Shown: piece after piece, positions 3,597 through 62,200 of the stretch
Layout of the letters: each line of letters opens with the position of its first letter
Numbering within the stretch: position 1 is the first letter of the stretch
DNA from: Rhodohalobacter sp. SW132
GTDB lineage: Bacteria > Bacteroidota > Rhodothermia > Balneolales > Balneolaceae
Length of the DNA stretch: 64,000 nucleotides
Assembly: GCF_003390325.1 (NCBI RefSeq)
Contig: NZ_QUOK01000001.1
Span: 806,001 to 870,000 of the forward strand
Direction of reading: 5' to 3'
Translations under genes and position numbers: made by a program
The notes under the pieces: model-generated
What the model saw: the letters and a program-made list of their open reading frames with translations, nothing else
Told to the model about the DNA's origin: nothing
Database searches by the model: none

Positions 3597-4103
3597 TCAG
3601 TTGTGAACGGCATAAACACTCATATTTTCCGCATCATCAAATAAAATCACCTGGTATTCGCGATCCACGGGCTGATCCATTCCGGGAGCATTTGCCGGCA
3701 TCCCTGGCGCTGAAATACCGATCGCATCTGGCCGTTCAGCGAGCATTCGCCGGATATCTTCCACCGGAACGTGGCCTTCAACCACGTAGCCGTCAACAAT
3801 TGCAGTGTGGCATGATCGGAGCCTCGGGGGAATATTCATCTCGTTTTTTATGCTGTGCGGGTCATCAAGCAGTTCATCTTTCACAGTCACCCCGTTTTTC
3901 TCAAGGTAATCTGCCCAGCGCACGCAGCACATGCATCCCTCCCCATGGTACATGGTGAGTGTAATTTCACCGTCATATAATTCCGTTTCAATTGTTTCCG
4001 TATCCTGCGAACTATTCGTATCACCGGAAAACATGTAGCTCCAGAATACAAAGCTGACCAAAATTAATGCAGCGGCAAATATATAAAATGACTTGTTTTT
4101 CAT
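3597..4103 (-). CDS. DUF411 domain protein, putative envelope copper-binding protein
   Basis: An uncleaved or signal-like hydrophobic segment covers residues 5-24, so the rest is predicted outside the inner membrane. The DUF411 domain starts around residue 47 with MYHGEGCMCCVRW; the family normally has a CxCC-type cluster here, and this protein has Cys57, Cys59 and Cys60 plus Met58. A second conserved Cys-His pair sits in RSCHTAIVDGYVVEGHVP. DUF411 proteins are often encoded with copper-resistance genes, and metal binding is an inference from these thiols. The segment after about residue 120 (Met/Pro-rich, PGMPANAPGM) is an extra tail. It converges on the aldehyde dehydrogenase gene. Confidence 0.8.
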   Translation of the reverse strand: MKNKSFYIFAAALILVSFVFWSYMFSGDTNSSQDTETIETELYDGEITLTMYHGEGCMCCVRWADYLEKNGVTVKDELLDDPHSIKNEMNIPPRLRSCHTAIVDGYVVEGHVPVEDIRRMLAERPDAIGISAPGMPANAPGMDQPVDREYQVILFDDAENMSVYAVHN

Positions 4104-12985: not shown

Positions 12986-13453
12986 CTACATGTCACGCAT
13001 CATCTGCATGCAATTCATTTGCTTTCCCATCACAGGGGATTGTTCCATCATTACACGCATCTGTTCGCGGTCAAATTCTTCGTTTTCCATCATGGCCAGC
13101 ATTTGCTGCATATGAGTTTTCATCTGTTCTCTTTGTTCCGGATCATTCATCATCGTCTCCACCCGGTCGAGCATCATGTCGTGATTCTCGTTCATCATGG
13201 ATGAGTGCATTTGGTTCATAAACTCGTGACGCATTTCTGTATCTTCCGCCATTTGCCTCATCATCTCCTGCCGGTGTTCACGATTCTGCATCATTTGAGT
13301 CGTCATTGCCTGACGCTGCTCCGGATTATTCATCATCTGACCCACTTGTTGATTATCCATCATGTGGTCGCGTTCTTCATCCTGCGAGTGATTACACTGT
13401 GCAAGAATAAAAGGGAGGCTCAGTAGTAGCATAAACAGCACTGTCTTTTTCAT
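12986..13453 (-). CDS. Methionine-rich lipoprotein, putative copper/silver binder
   Basis: The signal peptide ends in LAQC (Cys20), predicting a lipoprotein exported from the cytoplasm. The 135-residue mature part contains 33 Met by my count, many as MM or MxxM pairs, with scattered His and very many Gln/Glu/Arg. The segment MMNNPEQRQAM recurs as MMNDPEQREQM, so it is built from approximate repeats of ~40 residues. Such sequences bind Cu(I)/Ag(I) in other envelope proteins. Placement next to DUF302 and a CPH-type ATPase supports this, but the family is not named here. Confidence 0.75.
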   Translation of the reverse strand: MKKTVLFMLLLSLPFILAQCNHSQDEERDHMMDNQQVGQMMNNPEQRQAMTTQMMQNREHRQEMMRQMAEDTEMRHEFMNQMHSSMMNENHDMMLDRVETMMNDPEQREQMKTHMQQMLAMMENEEFDREQMRVMMEQSPVMGKQMNCMQMMRDM

Positions 13454-14189: not shown

Positions 14190-16214
14190 TCAATCCCCCA
14201 TCTTCAACAGCCGTGCGTTAATCGCCACTATCACCGTACTGGCCGACATCAGTACCGCTCCAACGGCCGGACTCAGAATTACGCCCCAGGTGTACAACAC
14301 ACCGGCAGCCAGCGGAATCGCTATCACGTTGTAGCCGGTTGCCCAGGCGAGGTTCTGCACCATCTTGCTGTAAGTGGCTTTGGAGAGCTTGATCAGGTTC
14401 ACCACATCTTCCGGATTGTTTTTTACCAACACTACATCACCGGTTTCGACGGCTACATCCGATCCCGCGCCGATGGCGATTCCAATATCAGCCTGTGCCA
14501 GTGCGGGGGCGTCATTTACGCCGTCGCCAGTCATTGCAACCAGTTTGCCCTGGCCCTGCACCTCTTTCACTTTGTCGGCCTTTTCATCGGGCAGCACTTC
14601 GGCAAACACCTGATCGATATCCAGTTCTTTGGCTACATATTCGGCGGTCTGCTGATTGTCGCCTGTCAGCATCACCACCTCGAGTCCCATCTCGTGAAGT
14701 TTCTTGATGGCGTTTCTGGAGGTTTCACGAATTTTATCTCCCAGTGCAATCGCACCGCATAGTTCATCATCAACCACCACAAACACCACGGTTTTTCCCT
14801 GAGAGGAGATATCCTCTACTTGCTCTTTCGGATAGTCGAAGTCGTTTTCGCGTACAAATCCGGGGCTAACCACCTTCACCGCTTTGCCATCCACTTTTCC
14901 TTCGATTCCTTTCCCGGTAATGGAGTTGAATTCATCCGGCTCCTGAACGCCTTCTCCTGCTTTCTCCAGAATGCCTTTCGCGATCGGGTGCTCGGAGTTG
15001 GTTTCGAGTGAGGCAGCGTACTTCAAGATTTCATCATCACTAAACTTATCGTTAAAGTTCAGAATATCGGTTACGGTGAACGTTCCTTCGGTGAGGGTTC
15101 CGGTCTTATCAAAAATAACCGCCTGCAGTTTGCGGGCCTGCTCAAAGGCCACGCGGTTGCGGATCAAAAAGCCATTGGTTGCAGCCAGGCTGGTGGAGAC
15201 CGACACCACGAGTGGAATAGCCAGCCCGAGGGCGTGTGGACAGGCGATGATCATCACCGTTACCGTCCGGTTCATGGTGAAGCTGAGATCCTGCCCGGTG
15301 AACAGAGACCAGGCCATAAACGTAAGGGCACCGGCTGTCAGGGCAACGATCGTGAGCCAGAATGCGGCGCGGTTGGCCAGATCCTGGGTTTTCGATTTGC
15401 TATCCTGCGCCTGACGGACAAGATTCATCACCTGTGAGAGGAAGGAGTCATCCCCGGTCTTATTGATCTCGATCGTGAGTGATCCCTCGCCATTCACCGC
15501 CCCGCCGATCACTTCATCATCTGTGGATTTGGACACCGGTTTCGATTCACCGGTCAGCATCGCCTCGTTTACGCTTGATTCGCCTTTGACGACCACCCCA
15601 TCAGCCGGAATTTTCTCCCCCGGTTTGATGAGCACTTTGTCCCCTTTTTGAAGGTCTTCAAGCGGAACTTCTTCCGTTGAGCCGTCCTCATTAACCCTGT
15701 GCGCCTTGCCGGGCAGCAGTTCAGCCAATTTTTCCAATGCGGCGGAGGCGCTCATCACCGAACGCATCTCCACCCAGTGGCCCAGCAGCATAATGCCGAC
15801 CAGTGTGGAGAGCTCCCAGTAGAGCAGGTGTCCGTCGAACCCGAACACCACAGCCGTGCTGTATACATAAGCAACGGTAATGGCCAGGGCGATCAGTGTC
15901 ATCATGCCCGGCTGCTTCTTTTTCAGCTCATCAATCAGCCCGGAGAGAAACGGCCATCCGCCAAAGAAATAGACAACGGAGGAGAGGGCGGCAAGGATCC
16001 AGGTGTCGCCGGTGAAGCGCCACTCCACATTCAGGAACTCCTGGATCATTGGCGAAAGCGCAAGAATAGGGATCGTCAGCCCGAGCACCCACCAGAACCG
16101 CCATTTAAAATCTTCTACCATCATTTTGTGATGTTCATGATGGGAGTGGCCGGAGTGCTCCTCATGATTGTGATGTTCGTCGTGGCTGTGGTCGTGATGA
16201 TTGTGATTTTCCAT
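14190..16214 (-). CDS. copB: CopB-type heavy-metal-translocating P1B ATPase
   Basis: The 674-residue protein begins with a very His-rich tail (residues 3-30), then has P1B-type membrane helices, the intramembrane motif CPH at 325-327, the phosphorylated Asp369 in DKTGTLTEG and TGDGVNDAPAL in the hinge. A CPH rather than CPC motif marks the CopB branch, which exports Cu(I)/Cu(II) or Ag(I) from the cytoplasm; the His tail may hold metal. It probably forms a functional group with the DUF302 and Met-rich lipoprotein genes on the same strand, though gaps of ~110-240 bp allow separate promoters. Silver versus copper specificity cannot be told. Confidence 0.92.
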   Translation of the reverse strand: MENHNHHDHSHDEHHNHEEHSGHSHHEHHKMMVEDFKWRFWWVLGLTIPILALSPMIQEFLNVEWRFTGDTWILAALSSVVYFFGGWPFLSGLIDELKKKQPGMMTLIALAITVAYVYSTAVVFGFDGHLLYWELSTLVGIMLLGHWVEMRSVMSASAALEKLAELLPGKAHRVNEDGSTEEVPLEDLQKGDKVLIKPGEKIPADGVVVKGESSVNEAMLTGESKPVSKSTDDEVIGGAVNGEGSLTIEINKTGDDSFLSQVMNLVRQAQDSKSKTQDLANRAAFWLTIVALTAGALTFMAWSLFTGQDLSFTMNRTVTVMIIACPHALGLAIPLVVSVSTSLAATNGFLIRNRVAFEQARKLQAVIFDKTGTLTEGTFTVTDILNFNDKFSDDEILKYAASLETNSEHPIAKGILEKAGEGVQEPDEFNSITGKGIEGKVDGKAVKVVSPGFVRENDFDYPKEQVEDISSQGKTVVFVVVDDELCGAIALGDKIRETSRNAIKKLHEMGLEVVMLTGDNQQTAEYVAKELDIDQVFAEVLPDEKADKVKEVQGQGKLVAMTGDGVNDAPALAQADIGIAIGAGSDVAVETGDVVLVKNNPEDVVNLIKLSKATYSKMVQNLAWATGYNVIAIPLAAGVLYTWGVILSPAVGAVLMSASTVIVAINARLLKMGD

Positions 16215-18449: not shown

Positions 18450-18490
18450 GGATCGGGCAGAGAATAATTTTTAAAAATATCGCCCGATCC
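18450..18490. promoter_or_regulatory. Dyad GGATCGGGC...GCCCGATCC between divergent genes
   Basis: Perfect 9-bp arms at 18450-18458 and 18482-18490 enclose a 23-base AT-rich loop, in the 186-bp gap between the nhaC-like gene and the cupredoxin gene. It could be an operator, an RNA hairpin or another repeat. Confidence 0.35.
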
Positions 18491-18560
18491 AATCCGCGGG
18501 GAGATTTACATCGTATGAATGAGCAGAGTCTAATTTAACCGCAAAAAATTCAAACGACGT

Positions 18561-19034
18561 ATGTCATTACAAAATAAACTCAAACTACCCTGCCTGTTTT
18601 TCATCGCAATGATCGTATCCTGTTCTGATACTACCAGCTCATCAGAATCTTCTGAACCCGTTCGCGAAACAACCATCACAATGGAAAATATGGGCGCATC
18701 GGCTTTTGTTTTTATTGGGATTGACGGGTCCGGTGCAAATGCAAATCTACAGAAAGAAAACGCTGAAATTGAACTTCGTGTGGGGGATCGGTTTACATTT
18801 GAAAATATGGCTGATGCATCCAGGCATCCTCTCGATTTCAGAAATAATGATGACGAAAAACTATTCGGTCAAAGCAATTCTTCAGGACTTTTTGATGATA
18901 TCGACGAGATTGACCTTGAAATGAATGGAAATGCCATCACATTTACACTATCGCCGGATCTTGCTTCAGTACTGAATGATTATATCTGCTCCTTTCACCC
19001 CGGAATGCGCGGTAATATACGTATGAACAATTAA
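18561..19034 (+). CDS. Cupredoxin-like lipoprotein
   Basis: A signal peptide ends in the lipobox IVSC (Cys21), followed by a Ser/Glu-rich linker and a ~120-residue plastocyanin/azurin-type domain. The four type-1 copper ligands can be placed: His89 in SRHPLDF, then Cys143, His146 and Met149 in YICSFHPGMRG. Cupredoxins carry single electrons or hold copper at the envelope. It lies downstream of a possible shared dyad and just before the tandem SOD/CHRD-like lipoprotein gene on the same strand, in a region with other metal genes. Confidence 0.85.
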   Translation: MSLQNKLKLPCLFFIAMIVSCSDTTSSSESSEPVRETTITMENMGASAFVFIGIDGSGANANLQKENAEIELRVGDRFTFENMADASRHPLDFRNNDDEKLFGQSNSSGLFDDIDEIDLEMNGNAITFTLSPDLASVLNDYICSFHPGMRGNIRMNN

Positions 19035-19203
19035 TCAGCATATCCTCTTGATGAACAATTCAGATCCCGTCATCAATTAAAAATAAAAAATAAAAAATCC
19101 AATCCGATCTGGAAATCACTTCGTACCTCTTTCTGACGGCCGGTTATCAAACCACTTTCACCGGTTCAAAATTTCTATCAATCACTAACTAAATCTGGTA
19201 ATT

Positions 19204-20685
19204 ATGTTAACCATTCAAAAATTATTTTCAACCCCTACTCTTCTGCTGGCGATTGCTGCCACCGTTCTGTTTACAGCCTGCAGCGACGATTCGCCCGTAG
19301 CACCCGATGATGGTGAGCTCCGAACTGAAACCTACACCTACGCTTTCAATGAAGGCCAGGCGCTGGGTGATAACGAAACGGCTTACAGAGGTGAACATGT
19401 CAGAAATCTCTCCGCAGAACTTATCATTGAAGAAAGAGAAGACGGTAACGCAAATGTTACTGTCAGATTGAGCAATACCGCAGATGGCGAAACCTATCCT
19501 GTTCATGCCCACGATTCTGCAGATCCCAACACAACGCCTAACGGAACTCCGTACGATGAAACGCCAAATGGCGATGTGTTTGCCGGCGGAATTGACGGCA
19601 ATGGCGGCACGGCAAGCTCTACTAATGAAACCTCAATCTCTTATGACGAGCTGATCAATAGCTACGACGGCTTTTTAGTAGTTCACGACCCGCTGCAGGA
19701 TTTAAGCACCGTAGATCTGACCACCTACCTTGTGCTTGGAGTGTTTGGTCAAAGTCTCAGTGCAGGAGATTCCAGCCTCCGTTCGGAGTCATTCACATAT
19801 GGATTCAATGAAGGCCAGCTGCTTGACAATCCCGATACTGCGTATGATGGCGATGGGGACGGAGATCACGCCAGAAATCTTACCGCAGAGCTGATGATCG
19901 AAGAGCGCGGGGATGGAAATGCGAACGTTACAGTTTCGCTTATGAATACAATCGACGGCACAGACTACGCTGTACATGCTCACGACATGGCTGATCCGTC
20001 CGAAACTCCAAACGGAACTCCGTATAACGAATTACCAAATGGTGATGTATTTGCCGGAATGATTAGCGGAAATGGCGGCACGGCAACCTTGACAAATGAG
20101 ACTGAGATGAGCTATTCCGATCTGCTTGAAGAGTACGAAGCTTTTCTTGTCGTTCACGATCCGACTCAGGAATTGAGCACTGTAGATCTGACCACTTACC
20201 TCGTGCTTGGAATATTTGCCGAATCCCTCGATGAAGCGGAACCCAACCTGAGATCTGCAACCTTTATGTACGACTTCAACGAAGGTCAGCTTTTGGATGA
20301 TTCGGATACTGCCTATGAAGGTGATCATCAGCGAAACCTGGCTGCAACAATCGAGCTGAATGAGCAGATTGACGGAACCACGGAGTTCATGGTAACACTC
20401 ACTAATACCGTTGATGGCGAAACCTACGCTGTTCACAGTCATGATGCAGCCGATCCGAACGAAACACCAAACGGAACCCCCTACGACGAAACGCCAAACG
20501 GTGATGTATTTGCCGGCGGAGTTGAAGGAACCGGCGGAGAAGCAATGGGAAGCAACATGTCACCCATGTCCTTCAATCAGCTTACCCGGGAGTACGACGG
20601 ATTTTTTGTAGTCCATGATCCGCTTCAGGAAATAAGCACGGTTGATTTAACAACCTATCTCATACTTGGAGTAACTGCCCGGTAA
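19204..20685 (+). CDS. Lipoprotein with three tandem SOD/CHRD-like domains
   Basis: The signal peptide ends in TAC (Cys26). The rest is three ~150-residue copies at residues about 39-184, 192-342 and 349-493. Each has FNEGQ, an RNL strand, V-H-x-H-D-x-A-D-P, a TPNGTPY loop, GDVFAG, and FxVVHDPxQ followed by STVDLTTYL. The HxH pairs are His101/103, 258/260 and 411/413 and the later His 161, 318 and 471. The HxH and VVH patterns resemble the copper ligands of Cu,Zn superoxide dismutase and CHRD domains; homology is an inference. It may bind copper, dismutate superoxide, or only keep the fold. A terminator follows. Confidence 0.75.
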   Translation: MLTIQKLFSTPTLLLAIAATVLFTACSDDSPVAPDDGELRTETYTYAFNEGQALGDNETAYRGEHVRNLSAELIIEEREDGNANVTVRLSNTADGETYPVHAHDSADPNTTPNGTPYDETPNGDVFAGGIDGNGGTASSTNETSISYDELINSYDGFLVVHDPLQDLSTVDLTTYLVLGVFGQSLSAGDSSLRSESFTYGFNEGQLLDNPDTAYDGDGDGDHARNLTAELMIEERGDGNANVTVSLMNTIDGTDYAVHAHDMADPSETPNGTPYNELPNGDVFAGMISGNGGTATLTNETEMSYSDLLEEYEAFLVVHDPTQELSTVDLTTYLVLGIFAESLDEAEPNLRSATFMYDFNEGQLLDDSDTAYEGDHQRNLAATIELNEQIDGTTEFMVTLTNTVDGETYAVHSHDAADPNETPNGTPYDETPNGDVFAGGVEGTGGEAMGSNMSPMSFNQLTREYDGFFVVHDPLQEISTVDLTTYLILGVTAR

Positions 20686-20717
20686 CACACAATATCCATA
20701 CCCTCAGTGATTACAGA

Positions 20718-20746
20718 AAGCCGCGTTTGACCACGCGGCTTTTTTT
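20718..20746 (+). terminator. Rho-independent terminator after the triple-domain lipoprotein
   Basis: GCCGCG and CGCGGC arms, extended by AA/TT, enclose TTTGACCA-type loop bases and are followed by a run of seven Ts. Confidence 0.85.
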
Positions 20747-20782
20747 GTGTCTATGTCATTTCTGCAGATAACCCTCCATTCG

Positions 20783-21241
20783 CGGATCGGCGATCCGCAG
20801 TACGTAGCCCGGATCGCTGATCCGGGAAGGCAATGTATCTGGCACAACCACAATTTCATCCATCAAAGCCAGCAGCAATAATACCGGGGCGGATTTATGT
20901 TACGGGTTCGAATTTGAGTTTTCGTAGCGGATCGGCGGTCCGCAGTACGTAACCCGGATCGCTGATCCAGGAGGGCGATGCATCTGGCAAAACCACAATC
21001 CCAACCATCAAATCCGGCAGCAATCATACCGGGGCGGATTTATGTTTCGAGTTCTGTTTTTGGGTTTACGTGGCGGATCGGCGATCCGCAGTACGTTACC
21101 CGGATCGCTGATCCGGGAGGGCGATGCATCTGGCACAACCACAATTCCAACCGTCAAAGCCGGCAACAATGATACCAGGTCGGATTTATGTCACGAGTTC
21201 GAGTTTGAGTTTACGTGGCGGATCGGCGATCCGCGGTACGT
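20783..21241. repeat. Tandem array of 145-146-bp units, 3.2 copies
   Basis: Units begin CGGATCGGC at 20783, 20928, 21074 and 21219, giving periods of 145, 146 and 145 bp. Each unit carries two small palindromes, CGGATCGGCGATCCG and CCCGGATCGCTGATCCGGG, then a segment with GGCACAACCACAA and a variable end GTTCGAGTTTGAG. The fourth copy is cut off after about 23 bases, inside the methyltransferase gene. The array fills the gap between that gene and the terminator at 20718-20746. Confidence 0.85.
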
Positions 21242-21868
21242 GGCCTCAACGTAAAAGAATTTCCAGAAGCGGAACGACCAGTGTGCTTCTGAGCTGATGT
21301 CAAAACCACTCCCCGTAAGCAACGTTTTCAATTCAGACAGCGACCGGGTATTGATGTTTTCCGGCGAAAGCAGGGAAATAATCTTGTTTGGCAGATGGAA
21401 CCACCCTTCCCGGTTCCAATCGAGGATTTTTACTGTGCCTTCAGGCTTTAGGACGGTTCGCATCGATTCTGTTACAAGGTGCTGATCTGTATAATAATGA
21501 AAGGAATTCAGGCAGGTGATGTGATCAAAACGGTTCTTTTCAAAGGGTAATTTTTCAGCCGGGTGACTGGTAAATGCAACATGGTTAAACTTCTTCAGCC
21601 TTTTTTTTGCAATCTGCAGCATTCCATCTGACGGATCATTCAGAGTAATTTTCACATCTGGAAATTTCAGGAGTATTTGTTCTGCAAGTATTCCTGTTCC
21701 GCCACTTATGTCCAGAATATGATCACCCGGACTAAAATTCAGCCGATCCATAAATTTATCATGCGTATGCTTCAGGTAGGCAGAATAGCCTTTATCATAT
21801 TTTTTTGATAACCGATCATAATGACCTACCGTTTTTTGAATGTTTTTATCTGATGAGTCAGCCATCAC
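21191..21868 (-). CDS. Class I SAM-dependent methyltransferase
   Basis: The 225-residue protein has a Rossmann-type motif I ILDISGGTGILAEQ near residue 50, a motif II acidic strand VKITLNDPSDGML, and a C-terminal part typical of small-molecule methyltransferases of the UbiE/Methyltransf_11 kind. The substrate is unknown. It lies 14 bases after the PAS histidine-kinase gene on the same strand, so the two are probably one operon. The last 16 residues (TYRGSPIRHVNSNSNS) and the stop codon come from the tandem 145-bp repeat, so its original end seems to have been replaced. Confidence 0.85.
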   Translation of the reverse strand: MMADSSDKNIQKTVGHYDRLSKKYDKGYSAYLKHTHDKFMDRLNFSPGDHILDISGGTGILAEQILLKFPDVKITLNDPSDGMLQIAKKRLKKFNHVAFTSHPAEKLPFEKNRFDHITCLNSFHYYTDQHLVTESMRTVLKPEGTVKILDWNREGWFHLPNKIISLLSPENINTRSLSELKTLLTGSGFDISSEAHWSFRFWKFFYVEATYRGSPIRHVNSNSNS

Positions 21869-59294: not shown

Positions 59295-62200
59295 TTACTG
59301 TGCCGATGCAGGTTCTGGTACAGTATCCCGCGAAGCGATGAATGCCGCTTTTTTCTCGGTGATATATACTTTTATATTATCTGCTGTGATATAGACAACC
59401 GGTATGAGCACCAGTGTGATAAGTGTGGATGCCGCGAGGCCACCGATTACAACCCGTGCTAATGATGCCTGGATCTCCGCGCCGGCACCCCATCCAAACG
59501 ATAACGGAAGCAGACCGAGGATGGTAGTGAGCGTGGTCATTAAAATTGGCCTCAGCCTCAGTTTACCAGACTGAACAACCGCCTCGTACACACTCAGATT
59601 TCGATCCCTTCTCATCAGATTGATGTAATCCACCAGCACAATGGCGTTATTCACCACAATACCGATCAGCATAATCAGCCCCATTACACTCTGCATATTC
59701 ATGGTGGTACCGGTGAGAAGCATCGTTGGAATCACACCAATAATAGCCACAGGCACGGAAAACATCACAATCAGCGGATCGAGGAACCGTTCGAATTGTG
59801 CGGCCATCACCATGTAAATCAAAATAAATGCCATGATGATTGAGATCAGGTAATCCATCTGGGCGCGCTGTTGCTCCTCATACTCCCCGCCGTATACAAT
59901 AGAGAAACCTGTTGGCAGTGAGAGCGTTGCGAGTTCAGACTGGATTGCACTTACAGCCTCCCCAAGCGTAGCTCCGCTTTCCAGGTTCGCGGTGATGTAG
60001 GTTACACGCTGACCGTTTATTTTGTTGATGCTCACCGGTCCGCGTGCCGACTCCTGCTTGATGACGGTTGAAACCGGAACTGTGGCCCCGGTCGCCGTTC
60101 GAACGGATATGTTATCAAGATCAAGAGTACTCATACGATCACTTTCGCGAAGCCGCACCATGATATCGAACTCATCACCGCCATCACGATATACACCCGC
60201 TCGTGTTCCGCCAACATTTGCCTGAATGGCCTGCGCGATATCCCGGCCGGTTAATCCAAGTTCAGCGATTTTTTCACGGTCGAAAACAATATTCTGCTCC
60301 GGACGGCCTTCCTGCCGATCGGATCGTGCACCACGGACAGCAGGAACACGCTCCATTCGGGTTACAATTTCGTCTGCGATTTCCTCAGCTCGTTCAAGGT
60401 CGTGACCCCGCAATTGAACCTGAACCGCTTCTTCCCCTCCGGAACCAAAAATTCTTCTCAGAATCCACAAGCCGGTCTGAGCTCTGACCCGAAACGATCC
60501 ACCCGGAATAGTACCTTCAATTTTATCACGAATCTCATCAGCAAGAGCGTATGTGCTGACGTTCCGTTCACTTTGATCAACCATGGTGAGCTCCACCTGC
60601 GCACGGCCATTCCGTACTTCGGTCGTCATATATTTCACCTGGTCCATCGGGGCAATTGCTTTAACTCGCGTTTTCAGCTCTTCCAGGTATTGATTTGCCA
60701 CGGCGATATTCATGCCGTCCGAAAGGTAGAAATCGATCCGGACCTCATCTGCTTCCGTTTGAGGTGCGAGTTCAGCGGAAATAAATCCCCATCCATACAC
60801 GGCACCACCCAAAAGCAGGGCTGTAACACCAAAAACAATCGCTTTTCGCCGGATTGCGGTTTTCAGAACATCACTATAACGATTCTCCACTTTTGCGAAC
60901 ATTCGCTGAAACCGACCCTTCTCTTTTTCAGTGATCTCACTGTCCGGTTTAATCGACATAAATTTACTGGCAAGCATCGGTACAAGCGTAAGAGCCACGA
61001 AGAGTGAACATATCAGCGCAAACACCACAACAAGTGCCAGTTCCTGGAACAGTGCTCCCGTAATGGTTTGCATAAACACAACCGGCAGAAAAATGACCGA
61101 TGTTGTTAATGTGGAAGCGATAATCGCGCCGGACACTTCACTTGTTCCCTGTAATGCGCTCTCTTTCAAAGATTTTCCATTGCCCCTGATCCGTACAATA
61201 TTTTCGAGAACCACAATGGCGTTGTCAACAATCAGACCCACCCCGAGAGCCAGTCCGCCAAAACTCATCTGGTTCAGCGTAAGACCTGAAAAATAGAGCA
61301 GGCCGAACGTGGCGATGATCGATATGGGAATTGCGAGGGAGATGATAAACGTAGTGGAGCCGTTTCTAAGAAACAGGTATAGCACAAAGATTGCGAGCAG
61401 CCCACCCCAGATGGCCGATTGCTGCACATTATCTATAGAGTTCTGAATAAAATCGCTTTGATTGATTACGATCATCAGGTTCAGATCTTCCCGTTCGGAG
61501 TTGATCCGTTCCAGTTCACGTTCAATCCCGGCAGATACCTCTACCGTATTTGCCCCGGTCTGTTTCCGGATTCCCATCCGGATCATCGGTTCATCGTTGA
61601 TACTCACCAATCGCCCGATATCCTGATAATCATCCACAACATCGGCGACATCACGAACACGAACCGGCTTTCCATCCATCACGGTTATGATGGTCTCGGC
61701 AATCTGTCCCACGTTGGTATACTCGCCCAGCGTTCTCACATAGAGTTCGCTAAATCCGTCACGAACATTCCCGCCCGGAAGTGTATTGTTTTCGGCAACG
61801 ATCGCATTACGCACATCCTGCGCAGTCAAACCGCTTGCGGTCAGGCGATCCCGTTTTAGATCCACACGTATTTCACGGTAGACGCCGCCCCAGACATCAA
61901 TCGCGCCCACGCCCGGAATTTGTTCGAGACGTTTTGATATATCACGCTCCAGGATCCGTGTAAGTTCATCCAGCTGGCGGGTGGATTGTGCTCCCACAAT
62001 GACAATCGGGGAGTCGTTCGGATCAAATTTCCGCACCCTGGGCGGATCGGCCTCTTCGGGTAAACTTCGCCTGACCCGATCCAGCGCCGCCCGAACATCA
62101 TTGGCGGCCTCATCGAGGTTGGTGTTTCTTGAAAAATTAAGATTTACGCGCCCCTGCCCTTCAGATGACGTTGAGGTTACTTCTTCGAGGTTTGCAACAC

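Follow-up and report, generated by a model that had tools for sequence, protein, structure and literature searches.

The 64,000-nucleotide stretch of the Rhodohalobacter sp. SW132 genome analyzed here (the window) encodes a lipoprotein built of three tandem repeats and, immediately upstream on the same strand, a small cupredoxin lipoprotein, with a motif resembling an extracytoplasmic function (ECF) sigma factor promoter in front of each of the two genes (Table 1). A previous sequence-only reading of this locus had described the longer product as a surface lipoprotein of three copies of ~150 residues, each retaining a V-H-x-H motif and a later VVH, and this description is confirmed. The protein starts with a signal peptide followed by the lipobox LFTAC, which ends at Cys26, the sole cysteine of the entire chain, and each of the ~150 aa repeats contains V-H-x-H-D (VHAHD, VHAHD, and VHSHD in repeats 1, 2, and 3, contributing H101 and H103, H258 and H260, and H411 and H413, respectively) and VVHDP (H161, H318, and H471). 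The histidine set was nevertheless incompletely recognized in that reading: the HxH and VVH residues are present, but one more histidine per repeat (H65, H222, and H375) had been overlooked, so that the protein contains exactly 12 histidines, four in each repeat at equivalent places. The repeat alignment further shows strong conservation of the loop following HxHD, in which N, D, T, and P are frequent. The mature protein is strongly acidic, with 89 D+E against 12 K+R and a pI of 4.05. Past the end of the repeat gene, positions 20782-21241 comprise three ungapped direct repeats with a ~145-bp period (GCGGATCGGCGATCCGCAGTACG...), the core motif of which occurs four times up to 21240; this region overlaps the 3' end of a methyltransferase gene (21191-21868).

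Table 1. Features of the window, in positions counted from its first nucleotide
Feature	Position	Strand	Remarks
DUF411 protein gene (copper-type)	3597-4103	-	
Met-rich small lipoprotein gene (copper-type)	12986-13453	-	
CopB-like P-type ATPase gene	14190-16214	-	CPH motif, His-rich N-terminus
ECF-type promoter motif, upstream of cupredoxin gene	18490-18515	+	CAATCC-N15-TCGTA
Cupredoxin lipoprotein gene	18561-19034	+	157 aa; type-1 copper ligands H, C, H, M conserved
ECF-type promoter motif, upstream of repeat gene	19100-19125	+	CAATCC-N15-TCGTA
Three-repeat lipoprotein gene (predicted SOD/CHRD fold)	19204-20685	+	493 aa
Repeat 1	19318-19755	+	His 65, 101, 103, 161
Repeat 2	19777-20226	+	His 222, 258, 260, 318
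Repeat 3	20245-20682	+	His 375, 411, 413, 471
Intrinsic-terminator-like hairpin 3' of repeat gene	20715-20744	+	12-pair stem, then T run

Relatives of the repeat protein were identified in Balneolaceae, Cyclobacteriaceae (Cyclobacterium and Indibacter), and Rhodothermota (Longimonas), with more distant ones in Fluviicola and Cryomorphaceae genomes, and contain three, two, or, in a single genome, one repeat. A search with a profile of 22 repeats detected the protein in 15 of the 92 genomes of the host's family, along with one distant CHRD-type match; across the phylum, it is present in only 10 of 394 genomes, four of these ten being weak or partial matches. All four histidines are invariant in 70 of 70 distinct repeats gathered from the relatives, with the caveat that the collecting pattern demanded HxHD and V[VI]HD, so that only the count for the fourth histidine is unbiased. 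This residue (H28 in the repeat numbering) is fixed while the adjoining positions vary, and one repeat that lies outside the collecting pattern, the second of L042, still has HAH. In a tree of repeats across species, the first, second, and third repeats fall mostly into position-specific clades, indicating that they are old paralogues, each with its histidines retained, and a recent tandem duplication as the source of the repeats is rejected by the same tree. The invariance of the four histidines in these old paralogues supports the proposal, made from the three copies of the window protein, that the conserved histidines are under selection.

Searches of Pfam, NCBIfam, and PDB sequences with the repeat protein returned no direct SOD or CHRD match: none of the 22 repeats scored above the gathering score of the Pfam CHRD family (PF07452), and Sod_Cu (PF00080) gave no match either. 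Structure prediction and superposition on Cu,Zn-SOD yielded an SOD-like barrel. The AlphaFold (AF2) model of one repeat, computed from a 22-row alignment (pLDDT 93.7, pTM 0.87), is a barrel with eight main strands; all 50 of the 50 PDB matches listed by Foldseek are Cu,Zn-SODs, CCS domain 2, Cu-only SOD5, or other SOD-like structures, with an E-value below 0.001 for only one among these 50. VIA-align superposed the model on tomato SOD with Z 8.7 and rmsd 3.9 over 113 residues, and on Mycobacterium tuberculosis SOD with Z 8.5 and rmsd 3.8 over 119 residues. Thus, the repeat is predicted to adopt the Greek-key SOD beta-barrel, which speaks for a shared fold alone. Profile-profile comparison of the repeats with SodC using hhalign was not significant, and that of CHRD with SodC was weak (57%), so that the link to SOD rests on the fold. 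The same method aligned the repeats with the CHRD repeats of related bacteria, a set that includes Pfam CHRD proteins, at 96.9% (E 2e-10), pairing HxH with HIH and VVHDP with NIHDP. Collectively, the predicted fold and this alignment identify the repeat as a divergent CHRD/SOD barrel, in agreement with the SOD/CHRD-like nature initially suggested, the CHRD kinship being recovered by profile-profile comparison and not by a direct sequence match.

The repeats share with CHRD domains (PF07452) the tandem arrangement in secreted bacterial proteins and the aligned HIH/VxH motifs, but differ from them in the enlarged first loop carrying the fourth invariant histidine and in falling below Pfam detection; a long conserved loop, HxHD-ADP-TPNGTPY, is absent from the aligned CHRD relatives. 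Other multirepeat proteins of this kind were encountered as well. Two genomes of the host's phylum encode 646-residue lipoproteins with five CHRD-like repeats containing HIH and VNVH motifs (L025:1468-3408 and L026:1099-3039), which are distant kin of the window protein, and the host genome itself encodes a protein of 782 residues (L063:190-2538; G000:C1:427642-429165) that contains four genuine Pfam CHRD repeats and has a C-terminal tail resembling type IX secretion signals.

The copper ligands of SOD sit on beta-4 and beta-7. In the repeat model, H64 and H66 are located on the strand spanning residues 60-68, and H124 closes the strand 119-124 (repeat numbering); the strand carrying HxH thus resembles beta-4, and the one ending in VVH resembles beta-7. 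Judging from these modeled strands and from the CHRD alignment, three SOD copper ligands, of the His46, His48, and His120 types, appear to be kept in each repeat. In each repeat, the two histidines of HxH and that of VVH probably bind a single, accessible mononuclear copper. In the model, the enlarged first loop bearing H28 exits the barrel after strand 1, and because strand 1 of SOD pairs with the strand that begins near Arg143, H28 could be within reach of the copper; the fourth ligand would then perhaps be this extra invariant histidine.

The partner encoded upstream resembles cupredoxins of the amicyanin/plastocyanin type (PF00127) in its C-x-F-H-P-x-M end motif and a distant histidine, but scores below the Pfam cut-off (Copper-bind, PF00127; E 0.0034; 18.2-18.7 bits, just under the gathering score of 21.2), is a lipoprotein, and has insertions of its own. 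The ligands H70, C124, H127, and M130 (A5 numbering) are invariant in eight cupredoxin sequences, including a fusion described below, so the intact Cys/His/Met ligands ascribed to this neighbor are maintained beyond the window. The structure model of the cupredoxin, built from four sequences, is poor (pLDDT 73), and the fold search with it was uninformative. The host genome also contains a second cupredoxin-like domain, within a 576-residue open frame (G000:C3:227750-228112), which is present in several relatives too.

Counting as strong orthologues those with an E-value below 1e-30, the cupredoxin is present in 14 genomes of the host's family, 13 of which also carry the repeat protein (15 carriers; Fisher p = 6e-13, a value that ignores shared ancestry). 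The cupredoxin is likewise the conserved neighbor of the repeat gene, the two being adjacent in 10 of the 13 co-carrying genomes in co-directional, divergent, or convergent orientation; in the other three, they are on different contigs, so that adjacency is not judgeable. A single 473-residue protein of Longimonas halophila (L017) combines the cupredoxin, its copper ligands intact, with two repeats, and a Rhodothermaceae contig (L016) carries the same repeat-cupredoxin fusion, interrupted by the contig end. No recognizable cupredoxin of the window type was found in the examined flanks of the Cyclobacterium, Indibacter, Fluviicola, and Cryomorphaceae relatives. Given that the proximity survives rearrangement and that a fusion exists, a shared function is strongly evidenced. 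The functional link between the two proteins that had been surmised from their vicinity in the window is hence upheld: the genes co-occur, lie close together whatever their relative orientation, share a promoter motif, and are fused in Longimonas. Mechanistically, the small type-1 copper protein would pass copper or electrons to or from the repeat sites.

The motif common to the upstream regions, CAATCC-N15/16-[TG]CGTA, was found in 21 of 30 regions preceding the two genes versus 0.027 expected from dinucleotide shuffles, although these regions are related and include one duplicated pair, and part of the same set served to derive the motif. The strict form CAATCC-N15/16-TCGTA occurs at five sites in the 5.08 Mb host genome, two of which are those of the cupredoxin and repeat genes, and the forward strand ahead of either gene shows no promoter of the sigma-70 type. 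A third CAATCC-N16-CGTA match in the window, of the CCGTA form (61523-61548, forward strand), is antisense inside an efflux-pump gene and is probably due to chance. The motif also precedes the ECF sigma gene in two relatives (L004 and L005), and the ECF sigma gene of the host, on an unlinked contig (C9), has a one-mismatch site, CAATCT-N15-GCGTA, upstream. Furthermore, the repeat gene has an RskA-type anti-sigma gene at a distance of at most ~2.2 kb in 8 of the 15 carrier genomes (G061, G246, G405, G411, G417, G419, G420, and G429), the sigma/RskA pair thus adjoining it in about half of the carriers, and most genomes carry just one RskA gene in several megabases; the RskA and ECF sigma identities were assigned by Pfam. 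Neither the host genome nor that of its nearest relative has the repeat gene linked to the sigma/RskA pair. In L. halophila, the fusion gene is flanked by a fasciclin gene upstream (L017:6389-6976) and by an RskA-type anti-sigma/ECF sigma pair downstream (L017:9448-11057).

SigK/RskA systems control fasciclin proteins, as in the mpt83-mpt70-dipZ genes of M. tuberculosis, where MPT70 and MPT83 are the fasciclin proteins; RpoE/ChrR of Rhodobacter capsulatus resembles SigK/RskA, and for relatives of the pair, the stimulus is light or photo-oxidative stress (PMC9861118, PMC7074977). The arrangement described here is similar to such regulons in that genes for an ECF sigma factor and an RskA-type anti-sigma adjoin genes for exported proteins, with a fasciclin gene near the Longimonas fusion, but differs in its targets, which are the SOD/CHRD-repeat lipoprotein and the cupredoxin. 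Both genes are probably switched on together by the ECF sigma factor, held by the RskA-type anti-sigma, which would sense envelope stress; the trigger may be redox, light, or copper.

Common inheritance, probable co-regulation, and, in one lineage, fusion with a blue-copper protein point to a two-part device handling copper or electrons and not to an ordinary SOD. That the repeats form a metal site and have the cupredoxin as partner finds good, if inferential, support, and we lean, at slightly better than even confidence, toward an envelope lipoprotein of three SOD/CHRD-fold copper domains that acts with a type-1 copper protein within an envelope-stress regulon of the ECF/RskA type. The three-His copper site predicted for DR_0644 of Deinococcus radiodurans (PMC9823218), described below, is a precedent for such domains. 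The likely location of the two proteins bears on this reading. Surface lipoproteins of Bacteroidetes carry the export signals SDDDD and SDDFE (PMC5080379), to which the first residues of the mature repeat protein, C-S-D-D-S, are similar; the protein may therefore face outwards, which makes the surface exposure suggested earlier plausible. The N-terminus of the mature cupredoxin, CSDTTSSSE, is without an acidic run, and this protein may face the periplasm; the two could thus be on opposite faces of the outer membrane, which counts against the favored explanation, but the existence of the Longimonas fusion indicates that both domains can share one side. Also weighing against the favored explanation are the missing cupredoxin in the examined flanks of the Cyclobacterium, Fluviicola, and Cryomorphaceae relatives, the unlinked sigma/RskA pair of the host and its nearest relative, and the sub-threshold Pfam score and poor model of the cupredoxin. 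In a narrower form, which we put forward only tentatively, each SOD-fold domain would hold a His-only (type-2-like) copper, with the loop-I histidine replacing His63, and would trade electrons with the type-1 cupredoxin, mostly a separate lipoprotein but fused in Longimonas, under the ECF/RskA stress regulon. If true, such a two-part redox device would be the counterpart, built on another scaffold, of the paired type-1 and type-2 coppers in copper nitrite reductases.

Alternatively, the repeats might serve as a copper buffer or store, holding several surface copper ions for tolerance or supply, with the cupredoxin shuttling copper to an exporter or to cuproenzymes. The multiple identical sites and the acidity of the protein fit this possibility, as do the genes for the DUF411 protein and the CopB-type ATPase in the same window. 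However, storage with one likely site per 16 kDa domain would be inefficient, the closest relative (L002) has no copper genes close by, and the common promoter is of the ECF type and not a recognized copper-responsive operator, so we regard this explanation as rather unlikely. For the same reason of their absence near the gene in L002, the DUF411 and CopB-like genes were rejected as forming a general unit with the repeat gene.

Another explanation, which we consider unlikely, is that each repeat is a Cu-only SOD that dismutates superoxide at the cell surface, using a copper bound by three or four histidines, in analogy to the animal Cu-only SOD repeat proteins (CSRPs), with the cupredoxin supplying copper or an extra redox center. 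Its attraction lies in the SOD fold, the three SOD-type copper histidines, and two precedents. DR_0644, from an S-layer complex of Deinococcus radiodurans, has a predicted three-His copper site (His74, His76, and His182) and belongs to a complex with measured SOD activity; like the window repeats, it is an SOD-type domain of the bacterial envelope with HxH and one late histidine, but it is a single domain in the trimeric collar of another complex, and the accessible part of that report describes neither a cupredoxin partner nor a fourth histidine (PMC9823218). CSRPs are repeats of Cu-only SOD domains, which similarly are tandem SOD-fold domains without zinc-ligand histidines, extracellular or at the envelope (PMC13017621). 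These animal proteins, however, have 4-12 domains and a conserved disulfide (PMC13017621), as opposed to one to three domains and no disulfide in the bacterial window family, which also has one bridging histidine fewer and a cupredoxin partner; among the features listed for CSRPs, tandem domains are found in the window protein, and the disulfide and the His63 equivalent are absent.

The reading of the HxH and VVH motifs as a Cu,Zn-SOD copper site is supported only in part. Their histidines lie on matching strands of the model, but they would account for only three of the four copper ligands: no histidine occurs between H103 and H161, or in the corresponding stretch of repeats 2 and 3, that would correspond to the bridging His63 or to the zinc ligands His71 and His80. 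An intrachain disulfide is excluded by the lack of any cysteine besides that of the lipobox, and the repeat alignment contains no invariant basic column equivalent to the active-site Arg143. Because all these elements are absent, an efficient classical SOD is unlikely, and the superoxide dismutation suggested by the sequence-only reading is doubtful. The acidity of the protein would further be unfavorable for the attraction of superoxide, and the host genome already encodes a separate, normal SodC (C8:212986-213372). Finally, the protein might be a metal-free structural or adhesive surface component built on the CHRD/SOD barrel, in which the histidines would have structural roles or mediate protein contacts. 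This would be in line with the chordin CHRD domains, which adopt the SOD fold, contain no metal, and are ligands of glycosaminoglycans (PMC13382577), and with the highly conserved loop after HxHD, but is very improbable given that three of the conserved histidines appear to be those of the SOD copper site, retained in all three old paralogues, and that the type-1 copper ligands of the partner persist in the fusion.

The family of the window protein thus represents a CHRD/SOD-fold variant distinguished by its histidine set, its partner, and a probable regulon. A literature search, with most subscription papers outside its reach, found no named bacterial family joining a cupredoxin with SOD/CHRD repeats, and the role of bacterial CHRD-fold proteins is seldom treated in the literature found. 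Published work presents tandem repeats of Cu-only SOD domains as a lineage of animal proteins (PMC13017621); the window family places SOD/CHRD-fold repeats with a conserved, nonclassical set of histidines in bacteria and offers a concrete partner, the cupredoxin, and a candidate regulator, the ECF sigma/RskA pair. With the partner named, copper binding by the repeats and the trade of copper or electrons with the blue-copper protein are directly testable.
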